From contig NZ_JAMBLS010000013.1 in assembly GCF_023336905.1 (NCBI RefSeq), positions 1-64,000 on the forward strand: DNA of 64,000 nt. Direction: 5' to 3'. Both the position numbers and the translations under genes were made by a program. Below are positions 1,125 to 40,759 of the stretch, in pieces (position 1 is the first letter of the stretch; each line of letters starts with the position of its first letter). The DNA is from Bacteroides sp. ET71 (lineage in GTDB: Bacteria > Bacteroidota > Bacteroidia > Bacteroidales > Bacteroidaceae). Below the pieces are notes generated by a model. That model worked only from the letters and a program-made list of their open reading frames with translations. It was not told the origin of the DNA and did not search any database.

Positions 1125-1214
1125 TTTCCTGCCAATTACTCTTGCCCCGGCAAGGAAGAATTTGCAGGAAATCCACTTCAAAATGGAGGGAACAGGCGCG
1201 GCAGCCTACATTCG
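1125..1214. promoter_or_regulatory. leader unit A: covarying hairpin plus rightward promoter-like box
   Basis: The plus strand shows arms TTTCCTGC (1125-1132) and GCAGGAAA (1164-1171), an inner AATT/AATT pair and an apical CTTGC/GCAAG stem. A TAnnTTTG-like box, TACATTCG, follows at 1207-1214, 36 bp after the hairpin. The unit lies between the ParB-like gene and the leftward gene at 731-1006. Related units occur at eight other places, each before a leftward gene, with compensatory stem changes. Whether it acts as RNA, as folded single-stranded DNA or as a promoter unit is not known. The rest of 1007-1441 shows no gene. Confidence 0.6.
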
Positions 1215-1441
1215 CACCGTAGAAAACCCGTGCGGTGACGGCATGGAGGCTGAAACATGGGAATCCAAAACGGTATAAAGGGAACGAGCCTTGGGATACA
1301 AGGCTTTGAAAAAGGGATGGCAGACGGTTATAAACGGATGGCGGCGTTATGCCGCCGTTCCCTGCTATAAAAGGCATGGCCGGCACACGCCAGTATGCAG
1401 GACGGATTGCTCCGCCCTGCTTCTGAACTGAATTATGAAAG

Positions 1442-3166
1442 TCAAGCCGCTACATCTTCAGCTTGTGGCGTTTCATCGGGTTGCGGTTCTTCCTGCTGTT
1501 CCGTTTCCTGCTTCGCCTTATCCTGCACGGCAAGGACAGCTTTCTTTTCCTCGATGCGCTGGTGGCGTTTCTCGTACACTTCATCATAGCCCTTTCGGAT
1601 TTCGGCAAGCGTCTCGGGCATGTGCTTTTCCGCAAATTGGAGCAAGAGGGTGGCTACTGCATTGCCTCCGAATGCTTCTTGGAACTTCGCAATCAGAAAA
1701 TCCCTGCGGATAACGGCTTTCGCCTTGCCGTTAAGATTTTCAATGATATTGAATTTATCCTCGTCAGAAAGGTAAAACACATTTTCGCTGTCGATGCCCA
1801 CCGCTGCGTAATGCTCCTTGCGGAGCGATGAAAGGAGGAAGAAATAAATCATCTTGTCCTCGTCCGCACCAAACTTGGTTTCGGTGGCGTCCACCTCCAA
1901 AATCCGCTTCTTGGTGTCTGCAACGGTCTTTTCAAGGGCGATTTCCTTGTTCCGCTTGTCCTGCTTCTCCAACTTTTCAAGCGGTGAAAGTGGCTTCTCG
2001 TCTGCCGATGCACCATTTCCAGCCGTATTCATTGCAGAAGTTTCCATGTAACCGAGAGAAATGTCATCACGCCCGACAATGACATAGAGCGATATATCCC
2101 CCTCTGTGCTTCCCCGCAGTATGTCCTCGCATTCAGCCTTGTAGTCCTCCTGCTCCTGCTCGTAATCCTTTCGGGCTTCCTCATATTCCGCCGTGGTCTC
2201 GTAATCGACCGCTTCGGGTTCTTCGGGCATTTCGGGATAATCCGTATAATATGGCAGCGTTTCCAACTCATAGCCGAGTTCAACAAGACGCTTTGCAGCC
2301 ATATCGTTGGAATTGTAGGTACTACGGGCTAACATGGCAGTGGAATGTTCGCCCAACATCTGCACGGCGCGTTCCACAAGGTAGGCCGTGTTCATATCCT
2401 CAAGGCACTTCCTGTTGGCGCACTTTCCACAACCGCCCTCACAGAACAGCGTCATGTTGTTGGTGTTGTGCGGACAAGACATGCAGAGGGTCTTGTCAAA
2501 GGAATAGTATTCAAGGTCGGTCGTAAAATTCCTTTCGATGAGTCTCGCCACATCTGCGGCTTTCATGCCACGCCAACTGTTATACACGATACCCTCTTTC
2601 AGATGCCTGTCGTACACCTCGCTCTGTATCTCCTTACCGTAGCGGCAGATTTCGCTTGCCACGCTGATAGTGATTTCGTCCGTTTCCAAAAGGGCTGCGA
2701 TTTCGGGGATAAGGGCAGTGAATTTCAATCGAGTGCGGATATAGTCTTCCGACTTGCCGAACTGGACTGCCAGTGAATGTACATCGTGTCGTCCGCTCTC
2801 CATCAGTTTCTGATAGGCGTTGGCTTCCTCAATGGGTGTCACATCCTTGCGTTGCAGGTTTTCAGTGACAGCCATTTCTTCAGCCACCTCGTCCGACACT
2901 TCGTAAATGACTGCAGGAATAGTTTCCAACCCTGCCATGAGCGATGCACGGTATCTGCGCTCTCCAAAGATAATCTCGAAGCGGTTTTCCGCAATGGGTC
3001 GCACACCTATGGGCTGTAGGACACCCTGCTGCCGTATGCTGTCGGCAAGTTCGGCAAGGCTCGCCTCGTCAAAGGTCTTGCGTGGGTTGTAATTACTCGG
3101 CTGAATGTCCGCCAATGCTACCGATACGATGTTCTTTTCTACTGACTTCATGTCTGTTGCTTTCAT
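1442..3166 (-). CDS. ParB/RepB/Spo0J-like nuclease-domain protein
   Basis: A 574-residue protein with an N-terminal ParB domain. Visible motifs are NPRKTF (box preceding the fold), FGERRYRAS (the conserved GERR motif) and ENLQRKDVTPIEEA, followed by a KorB-type helix-turn-helix region (SLAVQFGKSEDYIRTRL). The middle contains a cysteine cluster (CMSCPHN...CEGGCGKCANRKC) that could bind zinc. The C-terminus is a long charged helical tail. It is much longer than classical partition ParB (about 300 residues). No ParA gene is adjacent, so a leading-region establishment role is as likely as partitioning. A second in-frame ATG lies five codons downstream. Confidence 0.9.
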   Translation of the reverse strand: MKATDMKSVEKNIVSVALADIQPSNYNPRKTFDEASLAELADSIRQQGVLQPIGVRPIAENRFEIIFGERRYRASLMAGLETIPAVIYEVSDEVAEEMAVTENLQRKDVTPIEEANAYQKLMESGRHDVHSLAVQFGKSEDYIRTRLKFTALIPEIAALLETDEITISVASEICRYGKEIQSEVYDRHLKEGIVYNSWRGMKAADVARLIERNFTTDLEYYSFDKTLCMSCPHNTNNMTLFCEGGCGKCANRKCLEDMNTAYLVERAVQMLGEHSTAMLARSTYNSNDMAAKRLVELGYELETLPYYTDYPEMPEEPEAVDYETTAEYEEARKDYEQEQEDYKAECEDILRGSTEGDISLYVIVGRDDISLGYMETSAMNTAGNGASADEKPLSPLEKLEKQDKRNKEIALEKTVADTKKRILEVDATETKFGADEDKMIYFFLLSSLRKEHYAAVGIDSENVFYLSDEDKFNIIENLNGKAKAVIRRDFLIAKFQEAFGGNAVATLLLQFAEKHMPETLAEIRKGYDEVYEKRHQRIEEKKAVLAVQDKAKQETEQQEEPQPDETPQAEDVAA

Positions 3167-3296
3167 AATTCTAAAAATTTAATTTGTTAATAACTCGTTT
3201 TTTTATTTTCCCTCTTGTCGGTCCTTTTCTGCCGAACCGCCTTTGGGGTTTTATGGATGCAGGTTCCGGCTGTCGGTACAGCTTCATACGGCGGTT

Positions 3297-3384
3297 TTTC
3301 CTGCCAATTACTCTTTCTCCGAAAGGAAGAATTTGCAGGAAATCCACTTCAAACCGACGGATCAAGCGCGACTGCCGACCTTTG
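3297..3384. promoter_or_regulatory. leader unit B: covarying hairpin plus rightward promoter-like box
   Basis: Arms TTTCCTGC (3297-3304) and GCAGGAAA (3335-3342) enclose AATT/AATT and an apical CTTTC/GAAAG stem with loop TCC. Unit A has CTTGC/GCAAG at the same place, so the stem is kept while its sequence changes. GACCTTTG at 3377-3384 lies 35 bp beyond the hairpin, matching the spacing in units A and C. It sits upstream of the ParB-like gene. The rest of 3167-3625 has no convincing gene. Confidence 0.6.
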
Positions 3385-3625
3385 CATCTGATAAAACCAA
3401 TGGCCGGTGACAGCAGGAATGACCAGGAGAGGATAAAGGCCCGGCCGTATAGAAAAGGGAAGACGGGCTTGCCGGTCATAGAAACGGTGTGGATGAACGC
3501 TATAAATGGGTATAAAAGAATGTGATATTTGGCAAATACAAAAGGTAAATTTCCCACAAATCGTATAAAAGGATTGGCGGAACAGGCAGCATATCGGGCA
3601 ACTCCGATATGCCACCTGAAGAAAA

Positions 3626-3811
3626 TCACAGCGGCGACAGTTCCGCCGGGAACACTTCCGCCTCCGAATAGTCCGAGGCTATCAAAATGATACTGTCCTC
3701 TTCGATTACCTCCGGGACATCCACCACCTGATACACACCGTCCGACAAACCGCCGTCCGGGTCATGCCAGAAAACCTTGCTTCCAGCCTTTATAAAATCG
3801 TAATTACACAT
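3626..3811 (-). CDS. small hypothetical protein
   Basis: A 61-residue protein (MCNYDFIKAGSKVFWHDPDG...) read from the ATG at 3811. A longer upstream frame exists but would run through the intergenic region and the SSB tail. The composition (GSKVFWHDPDGG...GVYQVVDVPE) suggests a small beta-rich domain such as an SH3-like fold, without a match I can name. It follows the SSB gene on the same strand, about 130 bp away. Confidence 0.6.
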   Translation of the reverse strand: MCNYDFIKAGSKVFWHDPDGGLSDGVYQVVDVPEVIEEDSIILIASDYSEAEVFPAELSPL

Positions 3812-3870
3812 ATCTCTAACATTATTCTTATTTCTGTCCGGAGTGTAAACCGAAACCGGCATACACCATA

Positions 3871-3893
3871 CCGGCAGTGATTCTGACTGCCGG
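3871..3893. repeat. inverted repeat between SSB and a small gene
   Basis: A perfect 8-bp inverted repeat CCGGCAGT / ACTGCCGG with a 7-nt loop. It is flanked by two near-identical GGCATAnACCATA direct repeats. There is no T-run on either side, so it is not a clear terminator; a processing site or a regulatory hairpin between ssb and the following gene is possible. Confidence 0.4.
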
Positions 3894-3942
3894 ATACGGC
3901 ATATACCATAGTCCAGTCCATACCGCCACCGGTATGCCCTTG

Positions 3943-4356
3943 TCAGAACGGCAGATCGTCCTTGTCGTCCTGCGGCATATCGGCAGGGGGTACGGGTGTG
4001 CTGTCCGTTGTGGTCGCCATGTTGTCCGGGCTGCCAGCCGAGCTGTCCTTCTTGCCTGTATTGATGAATGCGATGCTCTCCGCCGTAATGGAAAGCTGAA
4101 TCTGGCTCTCCCCGTTTTTGTCCGTCCACAGGGAAGATGACAGCGTGCCTTCAACAAGTACCAGCCGTCCTTTTGTGAGGTATTCAGCCAACCGGATGTG
4201 GTTCTCCTTGTTGCTTCTTACCTTTACCCATGTGGTGACGTTCTGTCCCTTTGCATAATCGTCAACGGCCATGTTCATAGCCATGAATGAGCCGTGTGCT
4301 CCTGCAATCACCTGGCAGTCTTTGCCGATGCGTCCGATAGTGTGTACATGTAACAT
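3943..4356 (-). CDS. ssb: single-stranded DNA-binding protein
   Basis: A 137-residue SSB. The OB-fold starts MLHVHTIGRIGKDCQVI, with the usual TTWVKV strand and the AEYLTKGRLVLVEGTLSSSLW segment. A low-complexity linker follows and then the acidic tip DDKDDLPF, the conserved C-terminal tail that binds partner proteins. It would coat incoming single-stranded element DNA and recruit repair or replication proteins. Plasmid-borne SSBs are typical of the leading region of conjugative plasmids, which fits the ParB-like neighbour. It is preceded by leader unit C. Confidence 0.93.
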   Translation of the reverse strand: MLHVHTIGRIGKDCQVIAGAHGSFMAMNMAVDDYAKGQNVTTWVKVRSNKENHIRLAEYLTKGRLVLVEGTLSSSLWTDKNGESQIQLSITAESIAFINTGKKDSSAGSPDNMATTTDSTPVPPADMPQDDKDDLPF

Positions 4357-4499
4357 AATAAAAAATGTTTTGTGGCAAGATGGTTGGTCCTGCCGTTACC
4401 TTTTTTTATTTTCCCTCTTCTCGGTTCCTTTCTGTCTGAACCGCTGTCGGGATTTTATGCTGCAACCAAAGGCTGTCGGCAAAGCCGCACACGTCGTTT

Positions 4500-4597
4500 T
4501 TTCTTGCCAATTACTCTTGGCAGCCCCGGCTGTCAAGGAAGAATTTGCAAGAAATGCACTTCAAAACGTAAGGGACAGGCGCGACGGCCTATATTTG
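4500..4597. promoter_or_regulatory. leader unit C: covarying hairpin plus rightward promoter-like box
   Basis: Arms TTTCTTGC (4500-4507) and GCAAGAAA (4547-4554) differ from units A and B at one position on each side, which restores pairing. The apical stem is longer (CTTG-CAGCC against GGCTG-CAAG). TATATTTG at 4590-4597 lies 36 bp beyond. This copy gives the clearest compensatory changes of the family. It lies upstream of ssb. Confidence 0.65.
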
Positions 4598-4611
4598 CAG
4601 CGGTAAAACCA

Positions 4612-5127
4612 GACCGGTGACTGCCAGAAAGCATCCGGAGAAAGCATAAAGTCGCACCGATTATAACTGTACGGACGGCCTGCCGGATATAAAAGCAGAG
4701 GGAAAGGATGATATAAGGGGAGCAACGGCTCGGGCGGGTAGAGAACAGCGGTCTGCCGGGCAAACAGAAAGGGGACTCTTTCCGCCTTGAGATCTGCCGG
4801 AATATATGGAGGCCGGCGCAAAGCGGGATGTGTCACCGTTTGTCCATGACACTGCCGGCCCGGAAAGGAAAGATACGGATTAAAGGCAGAATGTGCCAGA
4901 GCAAGATCCGGCAGGAAGTCTTGCATAGCGGAATACCGTGTTGTTTCGACATCCGTCGAAGCTCCGGCATGGAGCGGCAAGAATCGGACTGGCGGTGCTC
5001 CGGCACAGCCTTCCGTACCTTGGATTGAAGAGTGGACAGGGGCACAGACCTCCTACCTTGCTTCATGGGCGGGAAAAGCCGGATAGAAAAGGGATGAAAT
5101 GCCGGGAGAAAACACGCGCAGGTGAAG
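4612..5127. other. gene-free stretch
   Basis: About 500 bp between leader unit C and the low-GC insert. Open frames here lack plausible codon use or start sites on either strand. It is GC-rich with purine-rich tracts of the type GTAGAAAAGGGA that recur in other leaders. A copy of that tract (from 5067) is repeated at 6292 on the far side of the insert. I see no gene. Confidence 0.5.
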
Positions 5128-5177
5128 TTTTTGCGCAAAAAACAAACACAAATATGGTCGTTTCCCGAATCTTTGCC

Positions 5178-5245
5178 TATCTTTGCAGCACGAGAACCCC
5201 CAAGCCTCTTAACAATGCTCAAATCGGGGGTCGTTTTATTTTTAT
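5178..5245 (+). ncRNA. possible abiF-type small RNA with intrinsic terminator
   Basis: A consensus -7 box TATCTTTG (5178-5185) is followed within 20 bp by a hairpin with arms ACCCCC (5196-5201) and GGGGGT (5226-5231), then a T-rich run. A transcript from this promoter would be about 55 nt and would end before the downstream Abi_2 remnant. Conserved RNAs (the abiF RNA motif) are known upstream of Abi_2 genes. The assignment rests on position and architecture, not on a covariance match. A 14-bp palindrome TTTTTGCGCAAAAA precedes the promoter. Confidence 0.4.
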
Positions 5246-5251
5246 GCTCCT

Positions 5252-5371
5252 ATGACAATCAATTTCCCGAAACGAAACAACAGTTCGGAGGAACTGGCCG
5301 ACCTGCTATCCCGAAGAAGGCTTGTTCCTGATGACAAGGAAGTCAATAATTTATATGAGACAATGAATTAA
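5252..5371 (+). pseudogene. truncated Abi_2 (AbiD/AbiF-like) abortive-infection gene
   Basis: A 39-codon frame (starting MTINFPKRN) ending in TAA just before the next gene. The segment SSEELADLLSRRRLVPDD resembles the start of Abi_2 proteins, in which a K/T-x-E-x-I-x-L-L-x-x-R-G-L-x-I-x-D block is followed by a YYRL motif. Here the protein stops where that motif would begin. I read it as the 5' remnant of an abortive-infection gene left when the next gene was inserted. Confidence 0.4.
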
Positions 5372-5378
5372 TATAAAA

Positions 5379-6284
5379 ATGGAAAAATTTTACAAGAAAC
5401 AAATCCAGCTTTGGAAAAAAGTATATGAGGATTGGAACAATTCAGAGTCTTGGCAAAGATGCTTAAACGCATTGCCTCAGTATGTCTATAATGGTACTGA
5501 AGAATTTACCTTTCGAGAAGAGATTTTTCCTGGCTATTTCAAAGATCTTCATCACGATAGTTTTCAACTTTATGGGCTTTGTAATCACTATTTTCAAGCA
5601 AAGGCGGTTCTTGAATTTGAAGAAAACAATGATTATTCAAAATTAGTGGAAGGTTATTATCATCACATTCTTTATATTATATTGGGAGAAAAACATAGTA
5701 AATTTGAAATGGGATGGCTTGAATATGATTTCAGTTTGCTATTGATTTTTACAATAACTTATTTCCCACAATACACCTCTATTGTAGGAAAACACTTAGT
5801 AAAATTCTTAAAATTTCGTCATGAACGTAATTCATACGGAAAAAGGTATCATAAAATGTTTGGATTCTCGAATGTTATCTGGCTATCAGTATTTATATGT
5901 AAATGGTATGGGTTTAACGATTTGGCAAAAGAAATACAGAATTATTTTGATGTCATAGCAGATCCCCCGTATCAATTAGCCACAGAGAATCTGCTCTGTA
6001 CAGATGCGGAAATTGTAAATACATGGGTAGCAGGATTATCAGATTTTCATATTAAGAATAGTAAGGATAATCTGACACTACCATTTAATAACTATTATTG
6101 GCAATATTATCCGATTGAGATAATTGCCTTGCTTGAAATAAGACAGAAGGAAAATATCTCAAACGAAATCATTAAAAATGACTTTATCAAAAGATTTCTA
6201 CCCCACATAGGTAAATATAGTTCGATTGAATTTGACGAACTAACTCGCGCTCTCACAACACGAATTATTGGAGATAATGATTAA
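5379..6284 (+). CDS. hypothetical immunity-like protein
   Basis: A 301-residue soluble protein rich in aromatic residues (Y, W, F), in an AT-rich gene running opposite to its GC-rich neighbours. These traits match immunity proteins against polymorphic or T6SS toxins, such as those in the 14-19 kb array, but I recognise no Imm family. It starts 7 bp after the Abi_2 remnant. The insert is bordered by near-identical GGGCGGGAAAAGCCGG tracts (from 5067 and 6292), suggesting entry by recombination. Confidence 0.6.
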   Translation: MEKFYKKQIQLWKKVYEDWNNSESWQRCLNALPQYVYNGTEEFTFREEIFPGYFKDLHHDSFQLYGLCNHYFQAKAVLEFEENNDYSKLVEGYYHHILYIILGEKHSKFEMGWLEYDFSLLLIFTITYFPQYTSIVGKHLVKFLKFRHERNSYGKRYHKMFGFSNVIWLSVFICKWYGFNDLAKEIQNYFDVIADPPYQLATENLLCTDAEIVNTWVAGLSDFHIKNSKDNLTLPFNNYYWQYYPIEIIALLEIRQKENISNEIIKNDFIKRFLPHIGKYSSIEFDELTRALTTRIIGDND

Positions 6285-6364
6285 GTATTGGGGGCGGGAA
6301 AAGCCGGGTAGAAAAGGAACGGCATGTCGGGACGGTATGCCATAAAAAGGGAATTGCCGGCAAT

Positions 6365-6390
6365 GAAGGCAGCCCTCTATGACTGCCTTC
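6365..6390 (-). terminator. terminator of the gene at 6400-6813
   Basis: GAAGGCAG (6365-6372) pairs with CTGCCTTC (6383-6390). It lies just beyond the leftward stop codon at 6400, and a CCCTTTTTATGG tract follows further on in the minus direction. Confidence 0.6.
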
Positions 6391-6399
6391 CCCTGTCTG

Positions 6400-6813
6400 T
6401 CAACCGATGAAGTTGAAATGCCTGTCGCAAAATTCTTTCTGCCGCATGAAACGCTCGCTCCGGTAGAAGTCCACTTTGGGATACATGCAATGGCCGGAGG
6501 CGGCATATCTGCCGGTCGGTACACCCAACTCATAAAGCACGAGCCAGTCCAGCACCGCTTCTCCGTTGTTGTTCGTGTCGATGAACTGGCAGCCGGCATT
6601 ACGCTCCACGCCCGGAAGATTGACGGTTATGACTGCCTCCGGCTCGAAACCGTTGCTGTCTTCTTTATATTCAAGCAATTCCAGACAGATTGGGCTGCCC
6701 AGTCCGTGCTGGTAGTAGGTAACAAACGGGAAGACCCATTTTTCATCCTTACGCAGAAGTTTTAACGTCAAACCGTCAACGACCACTTTTTTCTCACTGA
6801 TTTTCTTTTCCAT
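6400..6813 (-). CDS. conserved hypothetical protein
   Basis: A 137-residue soluble protein beginning MEKKISEKKVVVDGLTLKLLRKDEKW, with a mixed alpha/beta pattern and a segment AVITVNLPGVERNAGCQFIDTNN. Small proteins with the phrase ITVNLP occur in Bacteroidales conjugative elements (possibly DUF4313-like), but I cannot confirm the family. It has its own leader (unit D) and its own terminator, so it appears to be a single-gene unit. Confidence 0.65.
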   Translation of the reverse strand: MEKKISEKKVVVDGLTLKLLRKDEKWVFPFVTYYQHGLGSPICLELLEYKEDSNGFEPEAVITVNLPGVERNAGCQFIDTNNNGEAVLDWLVLYELGVPTGRYAASGHCMYPKVDFYRSERFMRQKEFCDRHFNFIG

Positions 6814-6927
6814 ACTTCAAATTTTTTATTTTGTTTTTTTTCTTTTCCCTGCGTTCGGTCCTTTCAGACCTTCGCCGGAATTATTTTTCCGCATCTGAAA
6901 GTGATGACGGCAAGCGTACAAATCTGG

Positions 6928-7022
6928 CGACAGAAATACGCTTCTCCACGAGAAGGAAGATTTCCGTCGGACACCGCAGGCTTGCAGGATTTGTAGGGAG
7001 CAGCCGTAATCCGTTACTTTCG
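6928..7022. promoter_or_regulatory. leader unit D: hairpin plus rightward promoter-like sequence
   Basis: CGAC-GAAAT on the left pairs with ATTTC-GTCG on the right, and an apical CTTCTC/GAGAAG stem has loop CAC (6928-6969). The internal loop (ACG on the 5' side, GGAAG on the 3' side) is the same type as in units E and F. TTTG at 6990-6993 and TACTTTCG at 7015-7022 are 21 bp apart and read rightward. A leftward TATCTTTG box also lies at 7062-7069 and could drive the gene at 6400-6813, placing the hairpin in its 5' leader. Confidence 0.6.
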
Positions 7023-7191
7023 CGGAACAATAAGCCGGGAAGGTAGGACTGGCTGCGAAGACAAAGATAAGGAAAGATATAAAAGGATGGACAGGCAGGT
7101 ATAAGGGGGAACGGTAAAAAAGGGAAAGAGGATAAAAAAGGGAGGATGCCGGCCTATAAAGGCAGGGCGGCCGCACAGGGCGTACCATACA

Positions 7192-7223
7192 GAAAAACCT
7201 GCCCGGCCATACGACCGGACAGG
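7192..7223 (-). terminator. terminator of the methylase-helicase gene
   Basis: CCTG-CCGG at 7198-7205 pairs with CCGG-CAGG ending at 7223, with a GTAT-type loop. On the minus strand a run of five T follows (AAAAA at 7193-7197 on the plus strand). The hairpin lies 28 bp past the stop codon of the gene at 7251-12224. Confidence 0.8.
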
Positions 7224-7250
7224 GAGTAAAGGTTAAAATATGAATTACGG

Positions 7251-10200
7251 TCAGGCGGCTTTGTCGATGTCCTCCTGTGCCGGATGCGGTTTCTGTTCCG
7301 CTTCCTTGAGGGCCTCGTCTATCCGCCGCTGCAAGTCCCTGCATTCCTGCCGGAGCCTTGCCAGTTCGTCCGCCTTGCTCCACCTGCGGCTGACGATTTC
7401 CTGCAAGGTGGGAAGTTCGCTTTGCAGTTTCGCGATTTTCTTGCGCTGATTGTCGATGATGCCCGGCAGTTTTTCCAGTGCATTCTTCGGGTATTGCGCC
7501 GACTCGACAAATCCCAGCGGCAACGCTCCCGACATGCCGCAACGGTATTTCAATCCGCTTCTGCCCTCGACATAGAACGTGTTGCGGTCGAATGTCCCGG
7601 AAAAGTCATATTCGCTGCGCACCAGCAGGTTCAGCCCCATATAGCTGCCTATGGTGGCGTATGCTTCGCTGCGGTATGTTTTCGCTATGCGGTGCAGTTC
7701 ACGCCCGGTCTCTTCCGCCGTGGCTTGCGGCAGGTTCAGCAGCAGGGTTGTCCGCTCTCCTGCGTATGCCTCGATGTATTCCCTGTCGGACTTGACCTGT
7801 CCGATGAACCGTTCCGCCTTTTCGATGTCCTGCCTGTTGGCTGACATCTTGTGCTCGGCACGGATGCGCCCTTTCTTGAAAATGGCCTGTTCCTTTTCCA
7901 ACTGCATAATCCTGTTGTCAAGTTTCGCCTTGTTCAAGAGGTCGGTATTCCCGGAGAGAATGGCTACGAACTCGGCGAAGTTCATGCCGTTGTCCTCGTC
8001 CATGCTGTCCTCGTCGATACGGCGCACGGCTATCGTGCCGTTGTTAATCTGGTTGATGAACATCTGTTTGTTACGCAAAAGGTTGAACTTGTAGGCATCC
8101 AACGTCTTCTCCGTGCCATAGATGACTATATCCACCACATTGCCGCCCCAGAGCTTGACGGTATTGCCCTTGCGCACCGCACGACCGTTGCGCTGCTCCA
8201 TGTCCGCAGGCCTCCAAGGTATCTCGAGATGATGCACCGCCACCGCCCGCTGCTGGGCGTTCACCCCTGTACCGAGCATGGTAGTCGAGCCGAACAGCAC
8301 ACGCACCCTGCCGCTGTTCATGTCGGCAAAGAGCTTCTTTCTCGCCCTCTCCGTGGTGGCACACTGGATAAACTGGATTTCATCAGCCGGGATGCCGAGC
8401 CGCACCAGCTTGTCCTTGATGTCGGTGTAGATATTCCACACGTTAGGCTTGTAGGTGGAAAGGTCGCTGAATATGAACTGCGTACCCCGGTTGGCATTGG
8501 AGCGCACATAATAGTCATAGACCGTCCTTGCGCAGATTGAAGCCTTGTTTCCTGCGTCGTCGCTGAACCTGTCACCCAAAAGGCGCATGTCAAGCGACAT
8601 CTTCCGTGCCACGTTGGTAGCGATGAGCATCTTCGCCTTGTCGAGATTGTCCGGTTCGGGAATATCGAGGCCGAGGTCTTCCCACTCTCCGCTGCGCGCA
8701 AAGGAAACCAACCGTCCAATCATTTCCTCCTGTTCGATGGTCGGGGCATGGGAAAGGAAACGCACGTTTTTCTCCGGCACATCGAGGTTTATCATGTCGG
8801 CGGTACGGTAATCGGTAATCTCACGCAGGAACATCGCCAGTTCCGGCACCTTGATATAAGAACGGAAACGCTCTTTCCGCCGGATTGAGCCTGTCACGTT
8901 CAGTTCGTAGTCGGCAGACTTCTTCGTGAATATCGCCGCCCACGCATCAAAGCAGCTGATGGACTGCCTGCGGAGTTCCCTCGGGCGCAGGTATTTGAAC
9001 ATCACATACAGTTCGGTAAGCGCATTGACAACCACCGTGCCGGAAAGTAGTGTCGCCCCCAAATCCCGGCCTGTGCGGTGCTGTATGTCACGGATGGCAA
9101 ACAGCATGTTCATCGCCCTTTGCGAGCCTTTGGTGTTGCCGATGCCCGCCACCCTTGTATGGCGTGTCTGGAACATCAGGTTTTTTATAACCTGACATTC
9201 GTCCACAAAAATGTGGTCTATGCCCATCGAATGAAAGTCCACTGTATCGTCTTTCCGAGCCTTGATTTTCTCCTGCAATTCGGCGAGTTTCGCTTTCAGG
9301 TTCTCCTGTCGCTTCTCCAGCCCTTTCTGCATCTGTCTGCTGCGGTAGCGCATGGTGGAGTTCTCCAGCACCTCGAGGCAACGCTCCACATCGGCCAGTT
9401 CCTCCGTGAAAATCTCCATCATGGTTATTTCCGACTGCGGTATCTTCGCGAACTGGTCGTGTGTCAGGATGATGCAGTCCCAGTTGTTGTTCTGTATCTT
9501 GGCAAACACCTCTTTCCGGTTGGCAGGCGTGAAGTCCTCCTTGCCCGGATAGAGCAGTTTGGCAGACGGATAAGCCTTGCGGAACGTGTCGGCAATCTCG
9601 TGCACGTTGGCTTTCAGGCCGACAATCAGAGGTTTCTGTACCAATCCCAAGCGTTTCATCTCATAAGCCGCCACGCACATTATCATCGTCTTACCAGTAC
9701 CCACCTCGTGCCAACAGATACCTCCGCCGTTCTGCTTAAGCATCCAGACGGCATCTTTCTGCGAGGGATAAAGCTCCTTGTAGGGGAAGTGCTCGAATGA
9801 CAGCCCCGGAAAGGTCTGCGCCGAACCGTCATAGTGCGGCCTCACAAAACAGTTGAACCGCTCGTTATAGACCCTAACCAGTTCATCCCTGACCTCCAGC
9901 GGCTGGCTGTCGAGCCATGCGTTGAACCGCTCCCTAATCTCCTGTATCTTGGTGGATGCCTCCTGTATGGCTTCCTCGTCCGGCACACGCACCCTGTCGC
10001 CGTTGCGTTCAATCTCCTTTGTTATTTCCGGCACTGTATCATGCAGGGCATGGACGAACAGGTCTTCGCCGTTGCAGTTGCGCACCGTGTAGGTGTTGTA
10101 AGCCGCCGGAGAATAGCCGTTCAGCCGCACAAGATAGGTGTCATTCACATCAAAGTACATCACCTCGGTTTCCACACCGAACAGCTCCGCCGCAAAATCG

Positions 10201-12224
10201 GCGTATATCTTCGTGTCAATCCACCGTTCGCCCATGTTGATGTCGAGTTCCTCGTAAGGTATCGGTTCGGGGGTTACGCTCTCCAGTGCCCTTGCAGAGA
10301 TTTCCGTCCAATCCCTTTCCCTGCCGGACAGGTCGTCAAGGCATGACATGAGTTCCTTATGCTTGGCAATGACATTGCCTGCGAGAAACTTGCCTTTATG
10401 TTCCCATTCTCCGGCTATGGGGTTGTAGAAAACCTCGCCTTTGAGGGCTTCCGTGACCTCTTCCACTTCCGTGCCTGTGGACTGCACGATGTAGTCCATC
10501 TTCACCTTGCCGTAGAAATTGAGGCTGCTTGCCAACGCCTCGAGCGGCGCCAGCGTTACATTGGTGTCTATCTTCTTGAATGCCACCGGCTCACGCATGA
10601 TGTCGGACTTGAAGATGTTGTCGCCGACCTGCATTTCAATGGTATAGACCTCCATTCCCAAACTGTCCTGAATGACAAACTCCCTGTTGTCGTTCTCGTG
10701 GAAGCACCCCCACTTGGCGACAAATGCGTCATACAGGGCGTTCAGCCGTTCACGCAAGGCTGTCTGTTCCTTTTCTTCCTCCCGCTCTTTCGTTGAGAGT
10801 TCAAAATACGCCTCCCGGAGCGGCAGGTAATCGGACGCCCTCTCCAGATTGACCTTTCCCTCGTCCAGCGGCACGAAATCCACCGCCGTTCCCTCGTAGA
10901 AGCTCGACTTGCGGAAGCGGAGCGTGCCAACCTGTCCCTCGAAGAGCACCATCGCACCCTCCTTTATCCATTCGGGCATATCCCCGGTGTATGCCCTCCG
11001 GCCTTTCTCCGGCATGACGGCAGCCGTTCCCCCGAAGAGTGACATCTGCACAGGCGCATCGTCCTGTCCGATGAAAAGGCTCTTGTGGAAATACCGGGCG
11101 AGGTCATACTGCAGCAGGGCGGACAGGTATCGGGACATGGAGCATTCGTCCCCAGACCACCTGTATTTACGGACATACTTACCGTGTTGGTTCCTGACAA
11201 TGCCGCTGTCGGTCGCCAGTACGGTCTTCGGCAGGGAAAACAGTTTGTTGGCGTATTCCGTCATCGTTCCGTCCGCATTTGCCTTTTCCCTTGTGACTTG
11301 CAGGAAAGCTTTCTCCCGGAGCGAGAGGGATGCCTTGTTCGTATGCTTCTGGAATATGAGCAGGTCGCTGCCCACCTCGATGCCGCTCGTCTGCATGAAA
11401 AGCGTATCGGGAAGCCTTACCGCACTGATAAGGTCGGCATGGCTCACGAGGTACTCACGCACGAACTTGTTGCCCGGCGTGTCGGCTACGCCCCTTGAAG
11501 TGACAAAGGCAAGCAAACCGCCCTCTGACAGCAACTCCATAACCTTGAAAAAAAAGTAATTGTGAATGGTCTTGGCTGCCTGTTCGTAGATGCCGCCCAT
11601 TTTCCAAAATTCCGCATCGAACACACGGAAATTGCCGAACGGAATGTTGGATGCAATGACATCGAATTTCCGATGCTCCAGCTCCTGCCTGTCTATCGTT
11701 TCAAACCCACCTGTCACGGTGGTTGCTTCATCATGCAAAAGAGAAAGTATAAGTCCGGTAATGATGTCGTTCTCAATGGCATAGCTGCGTGTTTCGTCCA
11801 TAGCGACAGGCAGGAAACCGCCGATGCCTGCACTCGGTTCGAGGAAGCTGCGCATCTGCAGTCCGTTCTCCCTGAATGTGGCGTGTATCTGACTTGCCAC
11901 GGTATCAATGATGAATTTCGGCGTATAGAACGCTGTCAGCACGGAAGACTTAATGCTGTCCAGAAAGAGATTGTAATCCGCTTTGCTTCCTTGAACAAAG
12001 GCATTCAAAGCCTCCTGCAGACGGTTCATCTGCTCCGCCAGTTCCTCGGGTATGGGAACTTGCGTCCCGATGGCCAGCACTTCCTTGACGCCTCCGAAAC
12101 CCGAATACTGTGCCAACACCTGTTTTTCCTCCTGTGTGGCTTTCCTGTGCTCTCCGTAAACAGTCACCGCTGTTTCTATGGCAGCCACATTCGCCGCCAG
12201 TGATTTCAATTTGTTGTAACTCAT
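7251..12224 (-). CDS. N6-adenine DNA methylase-SNF2 helicase fusion
   Basis: A 1657-residue protein. The N-terminal third holds a methyltransferase fold with a SAM-binding segment FLEPSAGIGGFLPV and the catalytic-type motif ASNIPFGNF (the NPPF family with I for P). The C-terminal half is a superfamily 2 SNF2-type helicase: Walker A HEVGTGKTMI, Walker B-like HIFVDECQ, the SGTVVVNAL motif, LGTGVNAQQRAVAVHHLE and motif VI QRNGRAVRKGN. A coiled-coil tail follows. Proteins of this build are carried by many conjugative elements and phages and are thought to modify incoming element DNA against restriction, though the target is unknown. It is a single-gene unit between leader E and a strong terminator. 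Confidence 0.9.
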   Translation of the reverse strand: MSYNKLKSLAANVAAIETAVTVYGEHRKATQEEKQVLAQYSGFGGVKEVLAIGTQVPIPEELAEQMNRLQEALNAFVQGSKADYNLFLDSIKSSVLTAFYTPKFIIDTVASQIHATFRENGLQMRSFLEPSAGIGGFLPVAMDETRSYAIENDIITGLILSLLHDEATTVTGGFETIDRQELEHRKFDVIASNIPFGNFRVFDAEFWKMGGIYEQAAKTIHNYFFFKVMELLSEGGLLAFVTSRGVADTPGNKFVREYLVSHADLISAVRLPDTLFMQTSGIEVGSDLLIFQKHTNKASLSLREKAFLQVTREKANADGTMTEYANKLFSLPKTVLATDSGIVRNQHGKYVRKYRWSGDECSMSRYLSALLQYDLARYFHKSLFIGQDDAPVQMSLFGGTAAVMPEKGRRAYTGDMPEWIKEGAMVLFEGQVGTLRFRKSSFYEGTAVDFVPLDEGKVNLERASDYLPLREAYFELSTKEREEEKEQTALRERLNALYDAFVAKWGCFHENDNREFVIQDSLGMEVYTIEMQVGDNIFKSDIMREPVAFKKIDTNVTLAPLEALASSLNFYGKVKMDYIVQSTGTEVEEVTEALKGEVFYNPIAGEWEHKGKFLAGNVIAKHKELMSCLDDLSGRERDWTEISARALESVTPEPIPYEELDINMGERWIDTKIYADFAAELFGVETEVMYFDVNDTYLVRLNGYSPAAYNTYTVRNCNGEDLFVHALHDTVPEITKEIERNGDRVRVPDEEAIQEASTKIQEIRERFNAWLDSQPLEVRDELVRVYNERFNCFVRPHYDGSAQTFPGLSFEHFPYKELYPSQKDAVWMLKQNGGGICWHEVGTGKTMIMCVAAYEMKRLGLVQKPLIVGLKANVHEIADTFRKAYPSAKLLYPGKEDFTPANRKEVFAKIQNNNWDCIILTHDQFAKIPQSEITMMEIFTEELADVERCLEVLENSTMRYRSRQMQKGLEKRQENLKAKLAELQEKIKARKDDTVDFHSMGIDHIFVDECQVIKNLMFQTRHTRVAGIGNTKGSQRAMNMLFAIRDIQHRTGRDLGATLLSGTVVVNALTELYVMFKYLRPRELRRQSISCFDAWAAIFTKKSADYELNVTGSIRRKERFRSYIKVPELAMFLREITDYRTADMINLDVPEKNVRFLSHAPTIEQEEMIGRLVSFARSGEWEDLGLDIPEPDNLDKAKMLIATNVARKMSLDMRLLGDRFSDDAGNKASICARTVYDYYVRSNANRGTQFIFSDLSTYKPNVWNIYTDIKDKLVRLGIPADEIQFIQCATTERARKKLFADMNSGRVRVLFGSTTMLGTGVNAQQRAVAVHHLEIPWRPADMEQRNGRAVRKGNTVKLWGGNVVDIVIYGTEKTLDAYKFNLLRNKQMFINQINNGTIAVRRIDEDSMDEDNGMNFAEFVAILSGNTDLLNKAKLDNRIMQLEKEQAIFKKGRIRAEHKMSANRQDIEKAERFIGQVKSDREYIEAYAGERTTLLLNLPQATAEETGRELHRIAKTYRSEAYATIGSYMGLNLLVRSEYDFSGTFDRNTFYVEGRSGLKYRCGMSGALPLGFVESAQYPKNALEKLPGIIDNQRKKIAKLQSELPTLQEIVSRRWSKADELARLRQECRDLQRRIDEALKEAEQKPHPAQEDIDKAA

Positions 12225-12332
12225 AGCTTAACCTTTAAATTAATTTTCTTCCCTTTGTTCGGTCCGTTTGCGACCGCAGGGATTATTTTTCTGCTTTGAA
12301 AGGTGGCGGTAGCCATACGCCAAGGCCGGTAA

Positions 12333-12429
12333 GGAAAAATACGCTCGACAGCCGGAGAGGAAGATTTTTCCGAGACCCTACGGGCAGAATGCCGGCATTG
12401 GCAGGAATGGAAAGCGCCGGTTACCTTTG
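12333..12429. promoter_or_regulatory. leader unit E: hairpin plus rightward promoter
   Basis: GGAAAAAT (12333-12340) pairs with ATTTTTCC (12364-12371) around an inner CTC/GAG stem, with the same ACG / AGGAAG internal loop as units D and F. TTG at 12398-12400 and the consensus box TACCTTTG at 12422-12429 are 21 bp apart, reading rightward; the box starts 51 bp after the hairpin. The unit is upstream of the methylase-helicase gene. Confidence 0.65.
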
Positions 12430-12568
12430 CTGAAAAATCCAATCCCCCGAGGTCGCACGGCTGAACAGGCGGAAACGCCGTGGTATAGAAAGGGAGGATG
12501 CCGGGCAGGTAGAAAAGGGAATGGAAAGGTATAAAGGTAATTGCCGTCGGCAGACCGGAAACATAAAA

Positions 12569-12599
12569 AGCCGTATCGGGTCATTTGCCCGACACGGCT
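12569..12599 (-). terminator. terminator of the gene at 12620-13246
   Basis: AGCCGTATCGGG (12569-12580) and GCCCGACACGGCT (12587-12599) form a long hairpin with a 6-nt loop. On the minus strand it is followed by TTTTTATG. It sits 20 bp beyond the stop codon. Confidence 0.85.
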
Positions 12600-12619
12600 C
12601 TGCCTTGTTCCGAAACGGA

Positions 12620-13246: not shown

Positions 13247-13277
13247 ATTTTTCAATTTAGAGTGTTTATACTTCAGT

Positions 13278-13499
13278 TCAAAGTTTGGGTATGTCGCCGC
13301 ATTTCAGCAGCTGGCCGTCCCTATAAAGCTCGATACGTCCGGGTCTGAAGCCCATTTCGGGGGCAACATTTCGGATATAGTCCTGATATTCCTTGCCTGA
13401 AAAGTTCTTTCCGCAAAGGTTGTTGAAAATCATTGGGATTGTGTGTTCGCTGGTGCTTGACAGGATTGTGCTACCGTCTTGTCTGATTTCTTCCGTCAT
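13278..13499 (-). CDS. small hypothetical protein
   Basis: A 73-residue protein (MTEEIRQDGSTILSSTSEHT...). It is the first gene after leader F on the minus strand and lies 31 bp before the next gene. No domain is recognised. The spacing and codon use support a real gene rather than a chance frame. Confidence 0.55.
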   Translation of the reverse strand: MTEEIRQDGSTILSSTSEHTIPMIFNNLCGKNFSGKEYQDYIRNVAPEMGFRPGRIELYRDGQLLKCGDIPKL

Positions 13500-13628
13500 A
13501 ACTTCAAATTTTTAATTGTTCGACATTGTTATTTGTTTTTATTTTCCCTCCGTTCGCCCTATGTACGAACTCCAGGATTATTTTTCTGCATTGAAAAGGC
13601 GGCAAGGAACAACCATACAAGGCTGGAC

Positions 13629-13915: not shown

Positions 13916-13946
13916 CAACATTATCGTAAGGAAAGAATTAGGCGAT

Positions 13947-37467: not shown

Positions 37468-37469
37468 GC

Positions 37470-37510: not shown

Positions 37511-37516
37511 CCTTTG

Positions 37517-37804: not shown

Positions 37805-37810
37805 AATAAT

Positions 37811-38005
37811 CTAATGAGCCAAGTTATAATAAATTTCGGGTTCGCCTGATACATTGTAAATCCAACTGCCGCACCGAATCAGCAGTGCATTCTTTCCGTA
37901 GTACAGCCTTTTCATGCCGGCAATGCTCCCGGACTTGTGGAAATTAGGGAAACGGCTGATGCCGATTCTCGCGCCGTCCCGCCTGTAAAGTGTCTTTGTT
38001 CTCAT
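37811..38005 (-). CDS. small basic hypothetical protein
   Basis: A 64-residue basic protein (MRTKTLYRRDGARIGISRFP...). It overlaps the end of the preceding gene by 4 bp (ATGA-type coupling), which supports its reality. No family recognised. Confidence 0.6.
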   Translation of the reverse strand: MRTKTLYRRDGARIGISRFPNFHKSGSIAGMKRLYYGKNALLIRCGSWIYNVSGEPEIYYNLAH

Positions 38006-38352
38006 GTCAATGCTGTTTTTAATGAGTTATAAAAATCCGTGAAATTTTTTTTCGCCTCTTCCATCTCATCCACAATGTCCTTGATATGGTAAGGTGCGCC
38101 ACATTTTCCGTGCCCGTCATAGCCAATCCACCGGTAGGCTTCATAGTCGGGGTCAAAGTCCTCGCAATTCCGCTCCACCTCCCTAAGAAACCCGTCAAAT
38201 TTGTTTCCTGTCAGTTCGACACAAAATCCGTAATCCAGTCCGTGCTTTGTGTAATAGCAGAAATCGAATACTACAGTGTCTTCTTCCTCGTCTGTACTTA
38301 CTATCCAGCCGAAATCGAAGGCGATGCTTTTGATTAGTTCTACTGTTGTCAT
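38002..38352 (-). CDS. acidic hypothetical protein
   Basis: A 116-residue acidic protein from ATG 38352 (MTTVELIKSIAFDFGWIVST); the longer frame upstream runs into the non-coding leader G. Patterns such as DTVVFDFCYYTKHGLDYGF and YEAYRWIGYDGHG suggest a compact alpha/beta domain. It is the first gene of a three-gene unit behind leader G. No function recognised. Confidence 0.65.
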   Translation of the reverse strand: MTTVELIKSIAFDFGWIVSTDEEEDTVVFDFCYYTKHGLDYGFCVELTGNKFDGFLREVERNCEDFDPDYEAYRWIGYDGHGKCGAPYHIKDIVDEMEEAKKNFTDFYNSLKTALT

Positions 38353-38480
38353 TGTCCTGTTTTTTATTTTCCCTTTGTTCCGGGCCTTCCGACCCGCCGC
38401 AGGGATTGTTTTTATGTGCGGTTTCCACGGCGAAGGCAAGGATGGCAGGCAAGGAATCTGCGGTGAAATTTTATGAAATG

Positions 38481-38571
38481 CCGCCATCTGTGATTGCGGA
38501 AAGTTTCCGTCAAATTTTATCCTGATAGCCAGGGCGGTCCTTGACCGGGCCGTCCGTTCGCCGTACCTTTG
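38481..38571. promoter_or_regulatory. leader unit G: hairpin plus rightward promoter
   Basis: CCGC-ATC (38481-38488) pairs with GAT-GCGG (38492-38499) around the loop TGT. TTG (38541-38543), 20 bp, TACCTTTG (38564-38571) reads rightward; the box starts 65 bp after the hairpin, as in unit I. The region 38572-38752 holds no gene that I can support. Confidence 0.55.
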
Positions 38572-38752
38572 CCGCATAAAAACATCCTGTGGGGTGTTGG
38601 CGGCACATGGAAATGAGCGTTTATCCATATATAAAAGGAGGGAGCCCATGACCTATGGGCATGTTATAACAGGCTCGGCCAGTCCCGTTGTGAGGCAGCC
38701 ACCACCGGCCGGGACACCGCCTCTGCCGATGATGGCTGTCTTGTCATTCAAA

Positions 38753-38935
38753 TCATATCTTATTTACAGTATCCTCCAGATATTCAATCCGCCTATATAC
38801 GGCGGATGCTTCAGGATAGCATTCCGTCAATTCCGCCCATTCGAGGGTCTTGTGCAGTTCGTCAAAAGTCAGTCTCAATTCTGCAAGTCCGTCCCGAAGT
38901 TTCCGTTTCAAGTCAATTCTTTCCTGTTCGTTCAT
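38753..38935 (-). CDS. small helical hypothetical protein
   Basis: A 60-residue charged, entirely helical protein (MNEQERIDLKRKLRDGLAEL...). It lies 17 bp downstream of the gene at 38953-39438 and probably shares its transcript. It might be a small dimerising or coiled-coil accessory protein; no family recognised. Confidence 0.55.
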   Translation of the reverse strand: MNEQERIDLKRKLRDGLAELRLTFDELHKTLEWAELTECYPEASAVYRRIEYLEDTVNKI

Positions 38936-38952
38936 AATCCTTTAATTTAGAG

Positions 38953-39438
38953 TCAGAAATGATAATCAATGACGCCTCCAATGTAGAGCAGCGTGCCGGG
39001 TTCATACCCACAAATCTCACGCATGAACTCGTAAGACTGTTCGGCATAGGATTGCATACCATCCGCATCTGTGTAAAACCAGTAAGCTGTTTCAAGCGGG
39101 TTTTTCAAGTATTTTTCAAGCTGATAGACCGAGCCGATATAATCCAGCATCGTGTCAGGGGTAACGGCTTCCATCTTGCTGCGCAAACCTGCCACAAAAT
39201 CCTCCTTCCACTTTTCCGCCCCGCCGGTGTAGCGGATTGTATCTTCATCGACAAGCTCGAACATCCCTGTGGGCAGGATATGGTTTACCAATATGTCAAT
39301 GTGGTACTTGCGCTCCTTCTCGCCAATTTCGCAGCAATAGTCAAAATAACTGTTGTCGCCCTGCATAAGCGTGTCCTCGTTCAGATAGCATTCCTTGTCC
39401 ACCTTTGTCGTTGTAATTTGAAAAATTTTGCTGTGCAT
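38953..39438 (-). CDS. conserved hypothetical protein
   Basis: A 161-residue protein from ATG 39438 (MHSKIFQITTTKVDKECYLN); the longer frame begins inside the leader. Acidic, with features such as DYCCEIGEKERKYHIDILVNHIL and a C-terminal YEPGTLLYIGGVIDYHF. I recognise no domain. Its layout (single leader, short partner gene) matches the other leftward units here. Confidence 0.65.
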   Translation of the reverse strand: MHSKIFQITTTKVDKECYLNEDTLMQGDNSYFDYCCEIGEKERKYHIDILVNHILPTGMFELVDEDTIRYTGGAEKWKEDFVAGLRSKMEAVTPDTMLDYIGSVYQLEKYLKNPLETAYWFYTDADGMQSYAEQSYEFMREICGYEPGTLLYIGGVIDYHF

Positions 39439-39582
39439 AATCTTGAAATTTAATTTGTTGAACATTCTTTTTCTTCCCTTTTCTCGAAAGCCTTCTTCGG
39501 CTTCCTTGTCGGGAAAGATTTTACATGCAGGAAAGACAGCGTGTAAAGAACAGGAAAGGCAAGGAAACCGTCAGGGATTTAA

Positions 39583-39701
39583 CGGAATACCCAACCCTGC
39601 GGGGAACTGAAAGTTCATCTTCGATTTGGGAAGGCTGCCGCTCAATCCGTGAACCGGTTAGCGCAGCGGTACTTGACGGCTGGACGGACGCTGTACCTTT
39701 G
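39583..39701. promoter_or_regulatory. leader unit H (degenerate): short hairpin plus rightward promoter
   Basis: A short CCC/GGGG hairpin with a TGC loop lies at about 39596-39604, preceded by AATACC as in unit I. TTG (39673-39675), 18 bp, TACCTTTG (39694-39701) reads rightward. The hairpin is weaker than in the other units. The gap 39439-39938 otherwise holds only the terminator below. Confidence 0.45.
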
Positions 39702-39891
39702 CATGGGAAAATCACTCCGGCGGGGAATGCCGAAACGGAGGAACGGTCGATGGCCCATGATAAAAGCGGACAGAAGTCATGGAATAAAAAGGCAGGACGG
39801 CAGGAACATACAAAAGGTTGCAGTGCCTTCCAGGGCATCCGGCTAAAACAGGGAGCAGGGACCGGAAAAAGGATTGTGATGACATGAAAAA

Positions 39892-39919
39892 TCCCCCGAA
39901 CTGACTTGCAGCCCGGGAG
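39892..39919 (-). terminator. terminator of the gene at 39939-40520
   Basis: TCCC (39892-39895) and GGGA (39915-39918) with additional C/G pairs form a hairpin. On the minus strand it is followed by a run of five T. It sits 20 bp beyond the stop codon. Confidence 0.65.
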
Positions 39920-39938
39920 ATATGCCCCTTTACCCGAG

Positions 39939-40520
39939 TTAACCTATCACTTCAAACTCATGCAGGTAGCAGAAAGCATCTTCGCTCTTCTCACTCCATT
40001 CTGCGTCAAGAGCTTCGACATCCTTTGCCGACCTTATCGGTTTCCCGGTCTCTTTCTCAATCCACTTGAACGCATCTTCCTGATTCTCGAAGTATTCGCT
40101 GATGTACTCTTCTTCGGGCGTACAGGCATCAAAAAAATACCTGTCGGGGAAATAGACGCCCGAACTGTCGTTCGTTTCATAAATTCCTATGCCCGGCTCT
40201 TCCGCCTGAAAGTAATAGTAAAGTGACGGATATTTTTCCCTCACAAGGTCAAACACCTCATTGCAGGGAGACCACGCCGTCTCGGTGTATAACCTTATCA
40301 CTTCGCCGTCCATTTCGAGGCAGCTCCACTCACCACGACAACTTACATCGTTCCAATCCTTGCCCAAGGCATCCACAAGGCATCCCAGCCATGTAGTCCC
40401 GAAGCCGTTTTCCACTGAAGGGTTTTCCATGTCTTCCAGTCTTTTCATTAACTCATAGAGGCTCTTGATTTCTTTTGCGTCGCCCTCTATCACATACGCA
40501 CTTGAACACCAATTAGGCAT
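39939..40520 (-). CDS. Api92/DUF1281-like ferredoxin-fold protein
   Basis: A 193-residue protein from ATG 40520. It begins MPNWCSSAYVIEGDAKEIKS, the signature start (MPNWCxNxxxIxGD) of the DUF1281/Api92-like family found on plasmids and pathogenicity islands. The remainder (CNEVFDLVREKYPSLYYYFQAEEPGIGIYETND) also fits that family. Function unknown. It is a single-gene unit with leader I in front and a terminator behind. Confidence 0.75.
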   Translation of the reverse strand: MPNWCSSAYVIEGDAKEIKSLYELMKRLEDMENPSVENGFGTTWLGCLVDALGKDWNDVSCRGEWSCLEMDGEVIRLYTETAWSPCNEVFDLVREKYPSLYYYFQAEEPGIGIYETNDSSGVYFPDRYFFDACTPEEEYISEYFENQEDAFKWIEKETGKPIRSAKDVEALDAEWSEKSEDAFCYLHEFEVIG

Positions 40521-40660
40521 AACTCTTAAATTTAATCCGTTAAACTTTTTCTTTATCTTTCCCTTTTCTCGGAGCCTTACGGCTTCCGGTCGGGAATGAT
40601 TTTCGTGCGTGAAAAGACTGCGGGTCAGGGGCAATAAGGCAAGTGGACGGCAAAGTAGCT

Positions 40661-40759
40661 GATGAAATACCCAAATCTGTGATTTGCGGAAAGCTGTCAT
40701 CCGGTACGCAGGCCTGTCAGCATGGCGGTACTTGACATTCGCCCTCCGCAGTACCTTTG
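40661..40759. promoter_or_regulatory. leader unit I: hairpin plus rightward promoter
   Basis: CAAATC (40672-40677) pairs perfectly with GATTTG (40681-40686) around TGT, and outer GATGA/TCATC arms flank it. TTG (40732-40734), 17 bp, TACCTTTG (40752-40759) reads rightward and starts 66 bp after the hairpin, as in unit G. Compared with G, the stem sequence differs but pairing and loop are kept. Confidence 0.6.

Follow-up and report, generated by a model that had tools for sequence, protein, structure and literature searches.

Single-stranded-DNA promoters have so far been characterized in enterobacterial plasmids. In the parts of the literature drawn on here, the Frpo and ssi (single-strand initiation) sequences are described as long imperfect hairpins of the transferred strand (T-strand) that stand before leading-region genes and rebuild promoter boxes within their stem (PMC9849209, PMC11541004). 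This study concerns nine hairpin units in the opening 64 kb of a contig of Bacteroides sp. ET71 that is 82,138 bases long (NZ_JAMBLS010000013.1; this whole 64,000-nucleotide stretch is hereafter the window). Their predicted structure, conservation, polarity relative to the genes and gene context were computed, and on these grounds the units are very probably Frpo-like promoters of a Bacteroidales integrative and conjugative element (ICE), built with Bacteroides promoter elements.

The nine units, A to I, lie on the + strand, each upstream of one or more leftward genes. In the lines below, box denotes the TAnnTTTG-like -7 element, R1 a covariance model of Bacteroidales class 1 units only, and z the DNA folding score (background mean -0.59, with 5 of 458 windows at -4 or below); all hairpins are predictions.

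Unit A, class 1: 1038-1263, + strand; box 1207-1215 (TACATTCGC); R1 match at 1079-1220, 139.9 bits; z -4.65; outer hairpin bounds vary with the stretch folded; upstream of leftward open reading frames (ORFs) 731-1006 and 448-720
Unit B, class 1: 3202-3437, + strand; box 3377-3385 (GACCTTTGC); R1 match at 3251-3390, 153.3 bits; z -7.08; upstream of parB
Unit C, class 1: 4418-4642, + strand; box 4590-4598 (TATATTTGC); R1 match at 4454-4603, 137 bits; z -4.01; upstream of ssb
Unit D, class 2: 6849-7060, + strand; box 7015-7023 (TACTTTCGC); z -4.37; upstream of a DUF4313 gene
Unit E, class 2: 12249-12474, + strand; box 12422-12430 (TACCTTTGC); z -5.14; upstream of a giant N6-methylase/helicase gene
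Unit F, class 2: 13546-13762, + strand; box 13718-13726 (TATTTTCGC); z only -1.05; upstream of leftward ORFs including 12620-13255
Unit G, class 3, tip degenerate: 38382-38606, + strand; box 38564-38572 (TACCTTTGC); z -3.48; upstream of leftward ORF ~38002-38352
Unit H, class 3, degenerate: 39496-39734, + strand; box 39694-39702 (TACCTTTGC); z -3.25; upstream of leftward ORF ~38953-39438
Unit I, class 3: 40597-40771, + strand; box 40752-40760 (TACCTTTGC); z -2.53; upstream of leftward ORF ~39939-40520

Three further units occur beyond the window at about 70.1, 72.0 and 74.1 kb, giving the contig at least 12; its units sort into interchangeable classes, of which at least four are known overall. 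All nine stand where the original prediction had placed them, and the plan ascribed to them (AAT(T)AC, a stem-loop, GGAA(G/A), then a TAnnTTTG-like box) is present in units A-F and I, with G and H degenerate at the tip. The three spacing classes reported earlier were recovered as well: the recomputed distance from hairpin end to box is 35, 34 and 35 for A, B and C, 46, 49 and 50 for D, E and F, and 64 and 65 for G and I, agreeing within about one base (unit H, whose hairpin end is ill-defined, was left out). No named family had been recognized, and a covariance model and a comparison with Rfam had been proposed. R1 is such a model, and no Rfam family was found at the window units, either across the whole window at the gathering cut-off, where the sole match was an abiF RNA at 5196-5232 outside the units, or in 1-14000 and 38300-41000 up to an E-value of 1. 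A fitting functional kind nevertheless exists, namely the Frpo/ssi promoters.

What would a rightward promoter box be doing in front of leftward genes? Folding of the + strand predicts a single long imperfect hairpin of about 170-240 nt at each of the nine units, and the short stem-loop first noticed is its tip. The box lies on the 3' arm, where its flanks on both sides pair imperfectly with the 5' arm, 12-64 bases to the left of the tip. This pairing of the box region is predicted in all nine window units and the three extra ones, with at least one box base left unpaired in each of the 12, and a motif-blind scan of the contig for long inverted repeats recovered all 12 units among its 38 merged peaks. 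Over 55 sequences the mean unpaired probability was 0.67 for the box A, 0.49-0.59 for the next five bases and 0.05 for the GC after the box; in class 2 the open stretch is shifted slightly upstream, around the box T and the three preceding bases. A TTG upstream of the box is found in the class 3 and class 4 consensus and weakly in class 2. The anatomy of hairpin and rightward box stands, but not its interpretation as a rightward promoter. With the box lying in the 3' arm of a bigger hairpin, its odd orientation is explained: in the folded strand the 3' arm would be non-template and the 5' arm template, so that the promoter would read leftward into the genes, whereas in double-stranded DNA it would drive transcription away from them.

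Covariation was examined in classes 1 and 2, after removal of near-duplicates (at least 93% identity; 70 unique units reduced to 42, which also served the flank-swap control below). Two loci, L042 and L037, probably belong to other classes and were left out of the class 1 alignment A2 and of alignment A3, respectively. In class 1 (21 sequences), 95.6% of cells are paired and double changes occur at 18 of 37 pairs. The covariation score of 0.328 compares with 0.153 for shuffled alignments (0 of 500 reach it) and 0.05-0.10 for slid ones (maximum 0.103). The helices flanking the -7 box each include double-changed pairs; the class 1 consensus leaves the box itself unpaired. Stem changes with pairing kept, of the kind first quoted from the window, recur in homologues (A2 columns 116/164 and 132/147). 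In class 2, covariation is weak (double changes at 4 of 49 pairs), which says little since the alignment is too uniform. Spacing is likewise narrow: the distance from GGAA to box is 34-35 or 47-49 in 39 of 41 class 1 units (there are two possible GGAA anchors) and 51-52 in the other two, 52-60 in 20/20 of class 2, 40-41 in 6/6 of class 4 (Prevotella type), and 39, 41 and 59 in class 3. The original claim of a selected, covarying structure with fixed geometry is thus borne out for class 1 covariation and for spacing in homologues.

Polarity was assessed in 47 partly redundant loci, comprising the contig itself, the related elements L011 and L012, 35 loci with a relative of the window SSB and nine ParB loci; the SSB loci come from records labelled as Bacteroidales genomes or metagenome-assembled genomes, except one labelled Acetatifactor. 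When only the tip motif and inner stem were sought, with no box required, all 96 matches (70 of them unique) lay on the strand that is the template for ssb/parB. The best -7 box was stronger on the 3' arm than on the reverse-complemented 5' arm in all 70 unique units; at a score of 6 or more it was present in 40/70 and 0/70, respectively, against a background of 4.5%. A stricter scan of the contig gave five matches on the + strand, none on the - strand and none in 20 shuffles, and over 80-160 kb of six contigs, mostly those of SSB loci, 25/25 units lay on one strand per contig. Matches to tip plus box on the ssb/parB template strand reached a long-stem pairing of 0.5 in 97 of 108 cases, against 0 of 1 on the other strand, the box being part of the query here. 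As a control, 42 units already past this cut beforehand were given a shuffled 5' flank, which passed in 10.8% of 840 trials, or the flank of another unit, which passed in 21.9% of 817.

Directly upstream of ssb, the 35 loci carry a class 1 unit in 20 cases, class 2 in four (L031-L034), class 3 in one (L029) and a class 4-like unit in one (L041). No unit was found directly upstream in 9/35, where there is an intervening gene or the unit is placed elsewhere. Since different classes precede ssb across loci, the cassettes appear interchangeable. At an E-value of 0.001, R1 matched 21 of 301 genomes of the family (five below 40 bits, two of those at the tip only) and 2 of 198 across the phylum, the ET71 genome included; in that genome it found units A-C only, plus a weak reverse-strand echo. 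A loose gapped pattern matched at least 120 stretches in IMG/VR, mostly non-specifically, and full units are present in 25 of the 120 matches listed, several of them near-identical. R1 was also run on 745 kb of other sequence, mostly these loose-motif loci (80 of the 120 matches listed), and gave 19 matches of at least 21.5 bits spread over 18 loci; the test for full units is passed by 13 of these loci as well; the 12 matches that were folded all form long hairpins. Judged from sequence, related units are present in other Bacteroidales mobile elements. Six contigs of 4-6 kb that are filed as viral (L127, L080, L138, L157, L098 and L089) hold near-perfect units; L127 is probably a mobilizable element and not a virus, because it holds two integrases and a MobC-type (MobC_2) protein.

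From these observations we infer that single-stranded DNA is transcribed, which strand is the T-strand and that the tip loop has a role, as follows. The + strand would be the T-strand that arrives in the recipient during conjugation, and it would fold back at each unit, as folding and class 1 covariation predict. The 3' arm would present the Bacteroides -7 element TAnnTTTG, with the upstream TTG where a class has it (classes 3-4, weakly class 2), and mismatches of the 5' arm with part of the box would keep the box, or its upstream edge, from pairing. RNA polymerase carrying the primary sigma factor may then bind the folded stem and open it at this bubble, with the 5' arm and all DNA on its 5' side serving as template, so that a leftward mRNA of the adjoining genes would be made before the second strand. 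The same RNA may in addition serve as primer for the second strand. With that strand complete, the hairpin would be lost and the genes largely off; in the interval SSB, the ParB-like protein and the methylase/helicase could protect the element and help it to become established. At the tip, the conserved internal loop AATAC(G/T)C/GGAAG perhaps binds RNA polymerase or a helper protein, which is speculative.

The alternative that survives best, although we regard it as unlikely, is that the units are structured leader RNAs: a leftward mRNA would start to the right of each unit, and the hairpin would act in its 5' untranslated region in the manner of an attenuator or riboswitch. The hairpins do lie upstream of genes on the mRNA strand, and a quasi-palindrome folds as RNA too. 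A survey of promoter boxes covered 62 of the 70 unique units, leaving out the ParB loci and units near a locus end. It placed a leftward -7 box (score of 6 or more) 0-90 nt to the right of the hairpin in 9/62 (14.5% against a 3.1% background), but 53/62 have no such box at that score. A leader RNA also leaves the opposite-strand -7 box and its bubble unexplained. On the + strand, stem mismatches outside the box are G.T in 51 cases and A.C in 25 (p 0.004, the sequences being non-independent), the reverse of what a - strand RNA would lead one to expect, and Rfam matched no unit in the window. Still less probable are ordinary double-stranded rightward promoters with an upstream hairpin, giving small or antisense RNAs directed away from the genes. 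The boxes fit the Bacteroides -7 consensus as given in the portion of PMC7366714 drawn on here, and some classes have the upstream TTG; the covarying pairing of the 5' arm on both sides of the box, together with the mismatch at the box, would have no explanation. Least probable, by a small step, are primosome-type sites for single-strand initiation of DNA replication with no role in gene transcription: strand polarity, hairpins and gene content fit, and the title of the Frpo paper reportedly names primer RNA synthesis too, but a -7 box and a position directly ahead of genes point to mRNA, and replication alone needs no twelve units per contig.

The following features bear on the nature of the element.

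1442-3166, - strand: ParB-family protein, 574 aa (PF02195, E 1.2e-31)
3943-4356, - strand: SSB1, single-stranded DNA-binding protein (PF00436, E 9.5e-14)
6400-6813, - strand: DUF4313 protein (PF14190, E 4.1e-30)
7251-12224, - strand: giant N6-adenine methylase/helicase, 1657 aa (PF02384, PF00271)
45535-46992, - strand: native MobV relaxase (NCBIfam MobV, 167.1 bits, cut-off 100; 66% identical to the annotated L012 mobV)
47011-47087, + strand: putative origin of transfer (oriT), with inverted repeat AATGAC..GTCATT (47058-47073), then GGGGTATTAGGCT

The genes downstream of the units (SSB, ParB, methylase-helicase) resemble a conjugative leading region, and a umuC-like gene, described below, also fits this gene content. 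The window covers a large part of a mobile element, whose backbone is largely common to the related elements L011/L012, G033 and G487/G442; towards the right end of the contig an integrase adjoins mnmE, a host gene, and the left end of the element lies off the contig. NZ_OY725768, a related record, encodes TraK, TraM, TraN and a coupling protein next to genes for ParB, ParA and SSB that run leftward, and its + strand carries class 1 units. Given these Tra proteins and the shared backbone, the carriers look like conjugative or mobilizable elements. The relaxase gene shares its strand with ssb or parB in the contig, G487/G442, G033 and L012, and the putative oriT block upstream of MobV is conserved in four aligned elements. 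A relaxase gene typically enters last, according to the part of PMC11541004 drawn on here. Combined with an oriT at 47 kb, this would have the + strand transferred rightward, matching the strand of the hairpins.

A weak relaxase-like ORF at 50747-52276 was at one point taken for the relaxase of the element and was replaced by the native MobV. It lies in an apparent inserted element at ~47.1-56.8 kb, with an integrase at 55058-56632; in L012, the genes that come directly after mobV are homologous to the five at 56868-60254 (46-75% identity). An attempt to read polarity from all PF03432 relaxases was dropped, as many seem to belong to other elements; on contigs that carry both a relaxase and units the result was mixed (opposite strand in G442 and G149, same strand in G080). 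The idea that the window starts with the end of a coupling-protein gene was unsupported.

Plasmid F is comparable in that its traI shares a strand with ssb, a ParB-family gene and psiB; the window ParB is 29% identical to the F ParB-family protein near ssb over 219 aligned positions. The F T-strand folds into long hairpins upstream of ssb (z -6.34) and upstream of the gene at position 16033 of the F record (L268:16033). Following the description in the part of PMC9849209 available here, these are taken for Frpo2 and Frpo1, respectively; the record does not annotate them. R1 finds the hairpin at L268:16033 at full length and on the right strand, with 21.5 bits (E 4.8e-4 in 20 kb).

Several points weigh against single-stranded-DNA promoters. 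R1 misses the hairpin upstream of F ssb (6.3 bits), so its match to F may be luck, its E-values being rough; together the two scores indicate that the likeness to F is architectural, with sequence homology weak at most. The identity of the + strand as T-strand is suggested by synteny and the MobV relaxase, and the oriT at ~47 kb is itself putative; were it right, units G-I would enter late. No unit was found for the leftward genes for OmpA and MobV. Other relaxases, which may belong to other elements, are mixed in orientation: in G080 a PF03432 relaxase at a distance of 36 kb shares the strand of the units, and in G036 the second relaxase (50747-52276) has a copy whose orientation is opposite to that of parB. 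Folding scores are weak for F (-1.05, not significant), I (-2.53) and the extra units K (-2.40) and L (-2.90), and class 1 lacks the -33 TTTG. Two looser scans neither separated the strands nor exceeded shuffles. Combined box and Smith-Waterman scoring, in which AT-rich repeats dominate, gave 26 matches of at least 15 on the + strand and 20 on the -, and three on each at 22 or more; a box-anchored folding scan gave 19 on + and six on -, yet 86 in six shuffles, about 14 per shuffled strand, and since shuffles give as many its total is no evidence. To the partial redundancy of the loci and the box-containing query may be added that a leftward -7 box of score 6 or more was absent from the reverse-complemented 5' arm (0/62) and from the leader (0/62), which is only mild evidence for a promoter of the folded strand because about 2 of 62 are expected by chance; the contrast between the two arms in the 70 unique units is stronger. 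Finally, the 9/62 units with a leftward box on their right suggest that ordinary promoters may serve some of the genes, the hairpin then being part of the leader RNA.

Other features were noted as well. Between units C and D, the abiF RNA (Rfam, 53.9 bits) is followed by a 301-aa ORF at 5379-6284 with no Pfam match, and the two probably form an abortive-infection module. A second conserved short hairpin, of the GTGGCAAGNTGGTTGGTCCTGCC type, lies at ~4372-4400 between unit C and the start of ssb and recurs in SSB loci; it is possibly a leader-RNA element of ssb. The motif TA(T/A)AAAAGG is strongly biased to the hairpin strand, 14 to 0 on the contig, where it is intergenic (for example at 1366, 3564, 7078, 38630 and 70234, + strand), and as TATAAAAGG 69 to 4 in 37 partly redundant loci; it was set aside as at least partly like the U-tracts of leftward terminators. 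A very stable palindrome at 40801-40970 (window z -7.7) lies upstream of the AbiEii gene region (AbiEii, 41708-42778). In locus L010, a umuC/DinB-like gene (3362-4873, + strand) stands between a recombinase and a second SSB gene; the part of PMC11541004 drawn on here reports umu-like operons bordering the anti-defence islands of plasmid leading regions.

More broadly, and with rather less assurance than for the units themselves, we favour the view that Bacteroidales own widespread, modular single-stranded-DNA promoters, in which a pre-melted -7 bubble and a new, factor-bound tip loop place a whole set of establishment and anti-restriction genes of ICEs and mobilizable elements under the control of strandedness. 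If so, a Bacteroidota version with a different sigma consensus would make the principle general and explain how conjugative elements of the gut could have their protective genes expressed as they enter a cell. Tip motif, box and strand together would give a simple signature for leading regions and strand polarity, and because the mismatch at the -7 box recurs, the mechanism can be tested directly.

Within the open-licence PMC literature, mostly judged by title and with preprints outside, no report of such promoters in Bacteroidota was found. The main text of PMC11541004, as far as drawn on here, has no word beginning Bacteroid, and the same is true of the available part of PMC12826799, which surveys Frpo in plasmids by BLAST. 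The Frpo-like candidates in leading anti-defence islands (Samuel et al., 2024, PMC11541004) are, in the sections used, also upstream of T-strand leading ORFs and predicted by folding and box matching, but with the -35/-10 consensus TTGACA/TATAAT and BLAST to known Frpo. Like Frpo1 and Frpo2 of F and the ssi of ColIb-P9 (the latter compared by description only), the Bacteroidales units are long imperfect hairpins of the putative T-strand just ahead of leading genes such as ssb, with promoter boxes inside the stem, and F and the ET71 contig share the placing of relaxase and leading genes on one strand. The -7 box is predicted within the stem in all 12 contig units, the upstream TTG in some classes only. 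Whereas Frpo carries -35 and -10 boxes, the Bacteroidales units carry the -7 box TAnnTTTG, and they differ further in their conserved AATAC(G/T)C/GGAAG tip loop, their at least four classes and the presence of at least 12 units on one contig.

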